A stretch of 36,727 nt of DNA. Source: Flavobacteriales bacterium (lineage in GTDB: Bacteria > Bacteroidota > Bacteroidia > CAIKAF01). Made by a program: the position numbers and the translations under genes. Location of the stretch: the NCBI GenBank assembly GCA_025055575.1, contig JANWWP010000019.1:1-36727 (forward strand). Reading direction: 5' to 3'. Numbering within the stretch: the stretch's first letter is position 1; every line of letters starts with the position of its first letter. This document shows, in pieces, positions 25,402 to 29,621 of the stretch. The notes beneath the pieces are model-generated. The model was not told the DNA's origin. It made no database searches and saw only the letters and a list, made by a program, of their open reading frames with translations.

Positions 25402-25470
25402 AAGGCCGAAAGCACGGTATCGGGTTAGGCCTTTTGCGTGATGTAGCGGCCCGTTTTGTTTTTTTGCGGC

Positions 25471-26781
25471 ATGCCGTCGCGTCTGGTTTCTATCGTAGGG
25501 AGGCCTAATGTCGGAAAATCCACCTTATTTAATCGTCTCACAGAAAGCCGATCGGCAATTACCGACGCTTCCGCCGGCACCACCCGCGACCGCCACTATG
25601 GCTCTGTCCTTTGGAATGGGCGTTCGTTCACGGTGATAGATACGGGGGGGTACGTCAGTGGTTCGGAAGATGTTTTTGAAAGTCAGATCAACCGGCAGGT
25701 GCGCGAAGCCGTCAAGCAGAGCGCTGTCGTCCTTTTTGTTGTGGACGCAGCCGCGGGACTGAATCCCCTGGATGAAGCGGTGGCCGATATGCTCCGTACC
25801 GAGGGGCGGCCAGTGATTGTGGTGGCCAACAAAGCCGATGATTATCGCACCCTCCAGTCCAGCGCAGAATTTTATGCTTTGGGTTTCGATAAAATATTTT
25901 CAGTGGCGGCTATCAGTGGAAGTGGCACGGGCGATCTTTTGGATTATTTGGTGGACCTTCTGGGGGCTGAGGAGGCGGAACCGCCTACCGAGTTTCCTCG
26001 GATCACAGTGGTAGGGAGGCCCAATGTGGGCAAGTCCTCCATAGTAAATGCCCTTTTGGGTGAAGAAAAGCATATCGTGACGCCGGTGGCTGGTACCACG
26101 CGCGACAGTATTGACAGCCATTTCCGGGGCTTTGGCATGGACTTTATCCTCGTGGATACGGCCGGCCTAAGGAAAAAAGGCCGGGCCATGGAGGATATTG
26201 AGTTTTACAGTGTGCTGCGCACCATCCAAAGCATAGAACGGAGCGATGTGTGCCTGTTGGTAACGGACGCCCGGGAGGAGTTTGGACAGCAGGAGCTCAA
26301 CATTTTGCGCCTATTGGAAAAAAATCACAAAGGGGTGGTGATTTTGGTGAACAAATGGGATTTGGTGGAAAAAGACACCCGCACCACCGACCTCTACCGG
26401 CGGCAAATTCTAGGCCGCACGGCGCCCTTCACGGATATACCGGTGGTATTCACGAGCGCCGTCCGGCGCCAGCGCCTCCTTAAGGCCTTTGAGGAAGCCC
26501 TTGCCGTGTATAACAGGCGTCAGCAAAAATTTAAAACCTCGGAACTGAACGCCACACTGCTACCCATCATTGAGGAAAATCCTCCGCCGGCCATCAAAGG
26601 AAAATATATCCGAATCAAATACATCACCCAACTGGCCACACCTTACCCGTCTTTTGCATTCTTCTGCAATCTTCCGCAATACGTCCGGGAGCCTTACAAA
26701 CGTTTTCTGGAAAACAAAATGCGGGAGTTATTTGATTTCCATGGGGTGCCTATTGAGCTATTTTTCAGGGCAAAATCCTGA
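25471..26781 (+). CDS. der: ribosome-assembly GTPase Der (EngA)
   Basis: A 436-residue GTPase with two tandem G domains followed by a KH-like domain, needed for assembly of the 50S ribosomal subunit. The first P-loop is GRPNVGKST at 10-18, the second GRPNVGKSS near 187-195; each G domain has its DTxG and NKxD motifs (NKAD, NKWD). The C-terminal KH domain covers about 350-436. I use the ATG at 25471; a longer frame from TTG at 25456 adds five residues. Length and all motifs are normal. The AT-rich gene at 26802 begins 20 bp after its stop. Confidence 0.97.
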   Translation: MPSRLVSIVGRPNVGKSTLFNRLTESRSAITDASAGTTRDRHYGSVLWNGRSFTVIDTGGYVSGSEDVFESQINRQVREAVKQSAVVLFVVDAAAGLNPLDEAVADMLRTEGRPVIVVANKADDYRTLQSSAEFYALGFDKIFSVAAISGSGTGDLLDYLVDLLGAEEAEPPTEFPRITVVGRPNVGKSSIVNALLGEEKHIVTPVAGTTRDSIDSHFRGFGMDFILVDTAGLRKKGRAMEDIEFYSVLRTIQSIERSDVCLLVTDAREEFGQQELNILRLLEKNHKGVVILVNKWDLVEKDTRTTDLYRRQILGRTAPFTDIPVVFTSAVRRQRLLKAFEEALAVYNRRQQKFKTSELNATLLPIIEENPPPAIKGKYIRIKYITQLATPYPSFAFFCNLPQYVREPYKRFLENKMRELFDFHGVPIELFFRAKS

Positions 26782-26801
26782 TATTTTAATATTTTAGTCA
26801 T

Positions 26802-27584
26802 ATGGGAAACGGAGACTTAATAGAACAACTTATTAAAGCATTGTATTATAAAAAGAGAGAAGATTTGGCTTATCTGTTGAGAAATTCTTCTTACGATATT
26901 GATATTTCAAATTCTTATGGTAGTTACCGGTATTCCAAATTAAGTGAATTAAGAATATTTTGTCATCCTGATAATTATAAAAAATTAAAAAATATTAATA
27001 GCTCTGATAGGGATTTGATTTTGGATTCAATTAAATTGATAATTCCACCCACTGAAGGGGGTATAGAAATTTGTAATGTAGGGTTTTTCCCAGATTTTGG
27101 TTTTGTCAATACTTTGAATATAGAAACAAAAAATTTGAAAAAAAATCCATATGGATTTATTCAAGATCTTTCTTTAAAATGTGATAGTAAAATTCGGGAA
27201 AAAGATTATGAAAGTGCTGTTACACTTGCTAGAATTTTGATTGAGACAGTTTTTGTTTATATAATAGAAGTTGATACTAATAATAAGTATAAAAGTGATG
27301 GAAATATCATGAAAATGTTTAAAGATGTTTTCTCAATTATAGATTCTAATTCAGGCTCGCAATTAAGTAAATTTTCTAAGGAAATTTTGTCCGGAGTGGT
27401 AAGTATTATTAATGGAATTTCTGCAATTAGAAATACCTATGGCGAGTCTCATGGAAAGGGTCCACTTCAAATTCATCAAAAAATTGATGAATCGAATGCA
27501 ATACTGGTTGTAAACCTAGCAAAATCAATTTCTGAATATTTTATTTCAAAATTTCAGAAAAAAATATCTCCTAATAGTAAATGA
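26802..27584 (+). CDS. Abi_C-type abortive-infection protein with HEPN-like motif
   Basis: A 260-residue protein, probably an anti-phage abortive-infection factor. The C-terminal half (about 135-250) matches the Abi_C pattern: the ESAVTLARILIET helix, the conserved RNTYGESHGKG with Arg210, Asn211 and His217, and the helix VVNLAKSISEYF. The spacing Arg-x6-His fits the Rx4-6H motif of HEPN ribonucleases, so RNA cleavage on infection is a reasonable guess. The N-terminal region (residues 24-100) resembles the sensor-like part seen in such proteins. The gene is much more AT-rich than its neighbours (27% GC in 26821-26880, 50% in a der sample), uses Lys AAA and Ile ATT heavily, and seems acquired. 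It sits 20 bp after der, in the same direction, without its own visible promoter. Confidence 0.75.
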   Translation: MGNGDLIEQLIKALYYKKREDLAYLLRNSSYDIDISNSYGSYRYSKLSELRIFCHPDNYKKLKNINSSDRDLILDSIKLIIPPTEGGIEICNVGFFPDFGFVNTLNIETKNLKKNPYGFIQDLSLKCDSKIREKDYESAVTLARILIETVFVYIIEVDTNNKYKSDGNIMKMFKDVFSIIDSNSGSQLSKFSKEILSGVVSIINGISAIRNTYGESHGKGPLQIHQKIDESNAILVVNLAKSISEYFISKFQKKISPNSK

Positions 27585-27623
27585 TAAAAATGAATTAAGT
27601 TTAAAGTAATAAAATTTTCGAAT

Positions 27624-29621
27624 TTATACTCCTTCGCTTTTTCTCGGGTCTCCTAAATGTTGTTTTAAGAAGCGCTCCATGGCTCGGTAGAAATCGAAGC
27701 GGTTTTCTTCGTTGCTGAAGCCGTGGCCTTCGTTGTCTTTCACCATGTATTCCACTTCAATGCCCCGCTTGCGTAAGGCTTCCACCATCTGGTCGCTTTC
27801 GGCCTTGTTCACTCGTGGATCGTTCGCGCCCTGGGCAATGAAAAGAGGCCGCACAATTTTATCAGCGTGCAGCACCGGAGAAGCGGCCGCCAGGAGAGCG
27901 CTGTCTTTTCGGGGGTCGCCCACCATTTCGTACATCATTTCAAGGTAAGGCTTCCAGTAGGGTGGAATCGTGTTCATAAAAGTGAACAAGTTGCTCACCC
28001 CCACATAATCCACGCCGCAGGCGTAGAGCGTGGGTGTGAAAGTGAGCCCTGCCAGGGTGGCATAACCGCCATAGCTGCCCCCGTAGATGGCGATGCGGCT
28101 GCTGTCTGCTATGCCCTCTTTCACTAAAAAGCGCACGCCGTCTGTGATATCATCCTGCATGGTGCGCCCCCACTGTTTGAAAGAAATTTCCCAGAAATTC
28201 CGCCCAAAGCCCACCGAGCCGCGGAAGTTCATCTGAAAAACGGCAAATCCCCGGTTGGCCAAAAACTGAGCTTCTGGATCATAGCCCCACACATCGCGGG
28301 CCCAGGGCCCTCCGTGCGGAATCACCACGGTGGGCAGATTTTTTCCATCAGAACCCACGGGCAGGGTCAGGTAGCCTTCGATGGTGAGCCCGTCGCGCGC
28401 GGTGTATTTTACGGGTTTCATGGGCGCCAGGTGCTCTTCTTTGAGCCAGGGCCGGCTTTCGGCCAGAAATTCCAGTTTCCCGGTGGCGCGGTCATACAGG
28501 TAGTATTTCCCGGGATTCCTGTCGCTGTAGGCGACCACAATAAATTTATTTTCTTCTTTATTATGAGATGTAAAGGAAATTTCATAATCCGGCAAGCTCA
28601 CCTGCACTTGTTTGTACATGGCCTCAAAATCCGGATCAAAAAAATGGATCTCCGTTTTTTGCCAGCCCGTGTAAGTGGTGGCCACCAATTTTTTCTCCTT
28701 TCGGGAATAGGAGGCGCCGTTGAGGTCGTAGGTGTCATTTTCGTAAAGCTTTTCCACTTCTTTTTTGTTGTTTAAGTCAAACACCACCAATGCCGTTTTG
28801 TCCCTTCCTAAATTGGAAAGCGCGTAAATGTTTTTGTTGTCGAATGTGAAAAACTGAGGAGATAGAGTTTCCTTAAAAGAAATGGTAATCACCTCCTTAA
28901 AAGGGCTTTTTTCATTGGGTCGGTGCAGAAGCGTGGTATTGACGCCATCGGTTTTGATGGCTAGGCGCAGCTTACCATCGTGATCGGTCATCCAGTCTGT
29001 AATGTCGCCAGGATTTTGAAACAATAGGTCCATTTTGCCGTTGCGAATATGGATGCGATAAGGATCAAACACTTGGGGATCGCGCTTGTTAAGACCGATG
29101 ATCATGTGGTCGGGGTCATCCTCCAGGTCGTCAATGATGGTGGTGAGAACTTTTGGAAAAGGCGTCAGGGGCAGAACATCCTGGCCCGACACATTGCATG
29201 AAAACAGTTGAAAGTTTTCGTCTCCGCCAATATCCTGCAAGTAGAGGATGCGGTCGCTTTTCCAGAAATAGGAACGGATGTCCCGGACGGTATCGTGAGT
29301 GATGCGTTGGGGTTTCCCGGTGCCTATTTCTTCTACGAAAATATTGAGCCGGTTTTTCCAGGGTGCCAAGTATGAAATATAGCGCCCGTCGGGCGAAATT
29401 TTGAAAGATGTTTTTTCCGGATTTTTAAAAAAATCCTCCAAAGGAATGAATGGTGCCATAGAATTAGAATCTGAAGATTTTCCCCCACCCCCGCAAGCCC
29501 AAGCGCCCATCAGAAGCGCCCAGGCCAGGGTCAATTTTACGGAGGGAATGGAAAAAAAACAAACAGTCTTAAAGCGGGCGTTTTTCCACCAGCATGAGGA
29601 AATAGTTGGGATTGTATTCAT
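27624..29621 (-). CDS. S9-family prolyl oligopeptidase, exported
   Basis: A 665-residue serine peptidase that cleaves peptides, often after proline or at dipeptides. The N-terminal half is a beta-propeller (about 60-390) and the C-terminal half an alpha/beta-hydrolase with Ser516 (GGSYGGYA), Asp601 (GANDPRV) and His633 (NEGHGF). A lipoprotein-type signal with GAWAC (Cys43) comes before a Gly/Ser linker. The ATG at 29621 overlaps the preceding glycosyltransferase by 53 bp and leaves an N-region of about 28 residues before the hydrophobic core; a start near the TTG at about 29534 is possible, so the N-terminus is uncertain. Confidence 0.9.
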   Translation of the reverse strand: MNTIPTISSCWWKNARFKTVCFFSIPSVKLTLAWALLMGAWACGGGGKSSDSNSMAPFIPLEDFFKNPEKTSFKISPDGRYISYLAPWKNRLNIFVEEIGTGKPQRITHDTVRDIRSYFWKSDRILYLQDIGGDENFQLFSCNVSGQDVLPLTPFPKVLTTIIDDLEDDPDHMIIGLNKRDPQVFDPYRIHIRNGKMDLLFQNPGDITDWMTDHDGKLRLAIKTDGVNTTLLHRPNEKSPFKEVITISFKETLSPQFFTFDNKNIYALSNLGRDKTALVVFDLNNKKEVEKLYENDTYDLNGASYSRKEKKLVATTYTGWQKTEIHFFDPDFEAMYKQVQVSLPDYEISFTSHNKEENKFIVVAYSDRNPGKYYLYDRATGKLEFLAESRPWLKEEHLAPMKPVKYTARDGLTIEGYLTLPVGSDGKNLPTVVIPHGGPWARDVWGYDPEAQFLANRGFAVFQMNFRGSVGFGRNFWEISFKQWGRTMQDDITDGVRFLVKEGIADSSRIAIYGGSYGGYATLAGLTFTPTLYACGVDYVGVSNLFTFMNTIPPYWKPYLEMMYEMVGDPRKDSALLAAASPVLHADKIVRPLFIAQGANDPRVNKAESDQMVEALRKRGIEVEYMVKDNEGHGFSNEENRFDFYRAMERFLKQHLGDPRKSEGV

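Follow-up and report, generated by a model that had tools for sequence, protein, structure and literature searches.

The gene located immediately behind der, which codes for an essential GTPase, in a 36,727-nucleotide stretch of DNA from a Flavobacteriales bacterium (contig JANWWP010000019.1, referred to here as the window) encodes a HEPN protein of the AbiJ kind, as judged from its sequence, its active-site motif and its predicted fold. The protein has a two-domain layout and is probably a one-gene abortive-infection protein that was acquired horizontally, in which a proposed N-terminal trigger domain is joined to a predicted HEPN RNase and for which a role against phage is predicted. AbiJ HEPN proteins, and the portable N-terminal domains that are found on them, are already known. 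The N-terminal region of about 100 residues described here is a real, mobile domain that is also present on a TIR protein encoded near a Thoeris system, and no description of the domain or of its HEPN-to-TIR exchange was found in the libraries and open literature searched.

The gene and its neighbours

The AbiJ-type gene occupies positions 26802..27584 of the forward strand (260 codons plus a stop), exactly where an earlier reading, made from the sequence without database searches (the sequence-only reading), had placed it. Its frame is open over just 264 codons and the start codon is therefore nearly certain. The gene is recognised by its matches to Pfam Abi_C and PADLOC AbiJ and by its low GC and GC3 contents. 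It begins 20 bp 3' of the stop codon of der (EngA) and on the same strand, which agrees with the earlier description of a position close behind this gene. The der gene itself spans 25456..26781 on the forward strand, with the ATG at 25471 as its likely start, and is matched by NCBIfam TIGR03594 (E=2.5e-151). On the other side lies an S9 prolyl oligopeptidase-family gene (27624..29621, reverse strand; Pfam Peptidase_S9, E=6.9e-47), which is convergent with the AbiJ-type gene, belongs to a separate transcription unit and is outside the system.

The composition of the gene, said earlier to have about half the GC of its neighbours, is indeed foreign, with a GC content of 27.2% and a GC3 of 17.6%, whereas the corresponding values are 52.8% and 60% in der and 49.7% and 59.3% in the gene of the S9 peptidase. 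When the DNA is taken in 783-bp segments the mean GC is 50% (sd 5%), and the minimum outside the AT-rich gene is 39%. No partner ORF is found alongside, in keeping with a single-gene system, and no defence island surrounds the gene in the genome, where the neighbours look to be housekeeping or metabolic. A putative terminator-like hairpin lies over the der stop codon (26765..26781, forward strand), from a scan in which 4 were found against 3.5 expected by chance; a second comparison gave z=0.43. The sequence-only reading had proposed that the gene depends on der transcription. Both the hairpin and the promoter scans that bear on this gave results near the chance level and do not support it, and a promoter for the AbiJ-type gene was not established.

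The C-terminal HEPN domain

The C-terminal half of the protein (residues 115-256; 27144..27569, forward strand) is assigned as a HEPN domain from the helical bundle in its structural model, from Foldseek comparisons and from its conserved residues. The AbiJ-type HEPN identity follows from matches to both the Abi_C and AbiJ models, from the R210-x6-H217 motif and from the HEPN bundle of the AlphaFold model, and the sequence-only reading, which had assigned the gene to Abi_C/HEPN and suggested a profile search as a check, was thus correct on this point. Pfam Abi_C (PF14355) matches residues 172-248 with 44.3 bits against a curated cut-off of 24 (E=2e-11), and PADLOC AbiJ (PDLC02347) matches residues 7-252 (E=3e-25). 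Abi_C is matched only once in the 2.44 Mb source genome, by the AbiJ-type gene, and not at all in 14 control genomes. No relevant NCBIfam model was matched by the whole protein.

The sequence RNTYGESHG, proposed earlier to fit the HEPN Rx6H pattern, is present and is borne out as the putative active site (Rx4-6H; R210-x6-H217, RNTYGESH; 27429..27452, forward strand), with R210 encoded at 27429-27431 and H217 at 27450-27452. Both residues are at least 90% conserved in an alignment of 28 sequences, whilst D135, H217, A233 and N238 are invariant in an alignment of 14. The pattern RN-x5-H is also carried by most of the relatives from viral contigs.

An AlphaFold model calculated from the 28-sequence alignment (mean pLDDT 83, pTM 0.60) predicts that residues 115 to 255 form a helical bundle. 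The best match in the PDB with Foldseek is 2hsb, a HEPN protein (probability 1.00, E=7.5e-3, target TM 0.67), and the HEPN structure 3o10 is likewise found at a probability of 1.00. The HEPN domain of human sacsin is matched with this probability and with a similar target TM (0.67-0.68 for 2hsb and sacsin, with E values of 7.5e-3 and 0.15), and lower-ranked matches include other HEPN proteins and AbiV; none of the Foldseek matches to the model has an E value of 0.001 or better. The protein is probably a suicide RNase of a known kind.

Proteins related to the HEPN half are also encoded on mobile DNA. The plasmid-borne relatives are annotated as 'abortive infection family protein', and 3 of the 11 that were inspected adjoin restriction-modification genes. 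On the plasmids L048, L049 and L053 the gene is found beside or inside a restriction-modification operon, and on L049 the type I S and R genes flank it. Viral contigs carry relatives of this half as well. Two unannotated phage records from INPHARED, OR846638.1 and MT835913.1, also encode proteins similar to it, in MT835913.1 with a longer N-terminal part. Pattern scans in which the whole window protein was the sole query returned no matches on genome or viral contigs.

The N-terminal domain

The N-terminal domain comprises residues 1-100 (26802..27101, forward strand) and is defined by its relatives on HEPN and TIR proteins and by its structural model. The sequence-only reading had noted that the N-terminal half was not a named domain, and residues 1-124, when searched alone, do indeed give no match to Pfam or PADLOC models at E values up to 1. 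Relatives of the domain were nevertheless found when the N-terminal half was searched against 395 genomes of the phylum, which gave two clear matches with E values of 7e-16 and 3.5e-12.

The first relative (L076/L081, E=7e-16) is a 259-aa protein from a Chloroherpetonaceae MAG that aligns collinearly with the window protein almost from end to end (32% identity, pairwise E=9e-49). It has its own match to Abi_C (E=4.6e-18) with the motif RNELSDAHG, and its gene is located among MazE, PIN and PemK toxin-antitoxin genes. The second (L077/L082, E=3.5e-12) is a 325-aa protein from an Ignavibacteriae MAG, in which a TIR domain (PF13676, E=2.3e-12) comes after an N-terminal domain of about 95 residues (35% identity to that of the window protein, pairwise E=2e-14). 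The gene for this NTD-TIR protein is followed by a GIY-YIG gene, a short ORF and then the Thoeris genes ThsA (E=1e-202) and ThsB (E=7e-75). In this contig (PAAX01000003.1, positions 111-4470 of L082) the ThsA-ThsB pair is complete and has ParA behind it. A possible role for the NTD-TIR protein is that of an additional sensor for the nearby Thoeris system.

A weaker relative (L130, genome G319; E=3e-8) emerged when genomes of the class to which the window belongs were searched with a profile. It is a solo ORF of 88 aa that does not contain the last strand of the domain and that lies directly 3' of AbiEi and AbiEii (L130:63-1752); it is perhaps a truncated fusion. When compared with 2,000 shuffles, the domains of the window, L081 and L082 detect each other far above every shuffle, and L130 is detected more weakly, giving three convincing proteins with the domain plus one that is weak or truncated. 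Neither tblastn against plasmids and phages nor profile scans of viral contigs returned a match to the domain. A further set of loose matches to the N-terminal half (L078, L079, L080 and L131-L134) was discarded, as these are short, weak or within unrelated frames.

Since the domain occurs on different effectors, HEPN and TIR, it is suggested to be an infection-sensing or adaptor module, and its presence on a TIR protein near Thoeris indirectly favours the guess of the sequence-only reading that the N-terminal part is a sensor. We would go further only tentatively, to the possibility that this is a portable infection-sensing module of the Bacteroidota phylum through which one recognition event is coupled to a HEPN RNase, to a TIR protein near Thoeris and possibly to AbiE.

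HEPN proteins are common toxins, and a different explanation would make the window protein a HEPN RNase toxin in which the role of the N-terminal domain is limited to that of a fixed inhibitor or to dimerisation; the gene would then be kept as an addiction-like or stress toxin and not as an infection sensor. The toxin-antitoxin genes that surround the full-length relative fit with this, as does the failure to recognise any ligand-binding signature in that domain. No antitoxin partner ORF adjoins the gene, however, and the presence of the domain on a TIR protein near Thoeris points more to sensing or an adaptor function common to both effectors than to inhibition of HEPN specifically, so that this explanation appears unlikely. 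A toxin-antitoxin pair of the MNT-HEPN type would include a nucleotidyltransferase antitoxin, and no such ORF is present between der and the S9 gene, both of which are identified.

Predicted fold of the N-terminal domain

The N-terminal domain is predicted to adopt the order alpha-alpha-beta-beta-alpha-alpha-beta, with a core of alpha-beta-beta-alpha-alpha-beta, and residues 1 to 100 of the model have block pLDDT values of 71-96. A model of the NTD-TIR protein, made from a three-sequence alignment of low depth, has the same order of elements with good confidence to residue 98, past which it is unusable. The four aligned domains (window, L081, L082 and L130) share the invariant pattern S-x2-Y-G-S-x3-S, which in the window protein is the SxxYGSxxxS motif from S36 to S45 (26907..26936, forward strand).

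The order of the core elements in both models is that of a type II KH domain, and it fits OsmC-like folds as well. The structural matches of the N-terminal model are weak and point to type II KH or OsmC-like proteins: those to RbfA, uS3 and Era have E values above 0.09, and OsmC and BolA score similarly to the KH proteins. The alignment of the domain contains no GxxG loop between its central pair of helices. With neither this loop nor a significant structural match, identity as a type II KH domain was dropped, and for the same reasons RNA binding by the domain is not claimed.

Origin of the gene and the der-S9 locus

A recognisable copy of the AbiJ-type gene was found in only one of 60 genomes searched, which were the source genome, one congener, 14 further members of the family and 44 of the class. 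That copy is the window's own, and the one other loose match among these genomes (L002) is partial and within a longer frame. Of the class, 395 genomes were compared with the AbiJ model and 6 of them, including the window's own, have a match. As none of these 59 relatives has a recognisable copy and the composition is foreign, horizontal gain of the gene is well supported, which upholds the earlier view of it as a foreign gene.

The sequence-only reading had described the gene as inserted behind der and had proposed a comparison of der-S9 junctions in related strains. The gain holds, whereas a simple insertion into the der-S9 junction is unsupported: the congener (G001) has no recognisable copy of the AbiJ-type gene, but der and S9 are not neighbours there either. 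In the congener der is followed by a gene for a secreted protein, and the S9 orthologue is on a different contig, where it faces DUF5683/ParB; orthologues of these neighbours are on other contigs in the source genome. Compared with positions 26781-27624 of the window, the congener thus has der and S9 apart, with other neighbours, on its contigs C97 and C99. Common to both genomes are a glycosyltransferase gene upstream of der and a membrane-protein gene upstream of S9, and these shared outer neighbours indicate a rearrangement breakpoint in the interval from der to S9 that the AT-rich gene occupies. The congener yielded no clean empty site, and no direct repeats were found on either side of the AbiJ-type gene to mark it as part of an element.

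The location of the gene 20 bp behind der and on its strand, together with an N-terminal model of type II KH-like topology that weakly matches RbfA, uS3 and Era, could be taken to mean that the protein has a housekeeping function in RNA processing tied to der, such as rRNA handling, and not in defence. This is very improbable, as KH-like folds are widespread and the structural matches are all above 0.09 in E value, and moreover the congener and the 14 other family members have no recognisable copy and the gene behind der varies widely, being different in most relatives.

It is also improbable that the gene is a passenger from a mobile element that is weakly or not expressed and has no present function. 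Its unameliorated composition, its presence in one genome only among those sampled and the lack of an established promoter would all fit with such a passenger, as would the inactivity of an AbiJ homologue tested in Streptococcus thermophilus (PMC12322248). Against this, the reading frame and both putative catalytic residues are intact, and conservation with the distant relative from the Chloroherpetonaceae MAG extends over both the N- and the C-terminal half.

Proposed mechanism and comparison with known systems

For the favoured abortive-infection protein, the N-terminal alpha/beta domain would detect something made during infection, or receive a signal, and would hold the HEPN domain inactive until it is triggered. 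In dimeric form the HEPN domain may then serve as an RNase that is independent of metal and relies on R210 and H217; its cleavage of cellular RNA would arrest the cell before phage release. The RNase activity, dimerisation, autoinhibition and phage trigger are predicted, and a defence phenotype is likewise expected by analogy with the family. This scheme resembles the proposal of Anantharaman et al. 2013 (PMC3710099) that AbiJ-type proteins consist of an N-terminal domain, which encounters a viral component and until then keeps the toxin in check, and a suicidal HEPN RNase. Protection should not be presumed, since the AbiJ homologue tested in S. thermophilus was inactive against the phages used (PMC12322248).

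The window protein is similar to the AbiJ family (Lactococcus AbiJ; PDLC02347; PF14355) in its HEPN Rx6H motif, its size and its single-gene layout, and likewise consists of an N-terminal domain joined to a C-terminal effector. It differs in its first 100 or so residues, which match none of the AbiJ N-terminal domains named in Pfam. Domains AbiJ-NTD1 to 5 are present in many AbiJ-type members and not in all; solo members exist, and the domains do not define the family. Five such domains, AbiJ-NTD1 to NTD5, have been described, of which NTD2, NTD3 and NTD5 are also found on TIR proteins (PMC3710099). The domain of the window protein resembles them in being interchangeable between AbiJ HEPN and other effectors, and would be an additional domain of this type, set apart from the five by the absence of a Pfam match at E values up to 1, provided that Pfam covers all of them; AbiJ_NTD3 was seen among its models.

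A tested one-gene example is SpbK of Bacillus subtilis, in which the N-terminal domain senses the phage portal YonE and clusters the TIR effector (PMC12847820). As in the window protein, a small N-terminal domain and a C-terminal effector are combined in one gene, although SpbK has a four-helix N-terminal domain with TIR and the window protein an alpha/beta domain with HEPN, and the comparison is one of analogy. With Thoeris, the connection is the context of the NTD-TIR relative shortly upstream of ThsA and ThsB and not membership, as the window has neither gene.

Significance for the AbiJ family

The N-terminal domain adds to the AbiJ-type repertoire a domain that is missed by the annotation libraries searched (Pfam, PADLOC and NCBIfam). 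Classification of AbiJ proteins follows the HEPN half. For what the N-terminal halves recognise, the HEPN and TIR pair described here makes a direct test, for if the swapped HEPN and TIR effectors were to answer the same phage, then the N-terminal domain would be the sensor.
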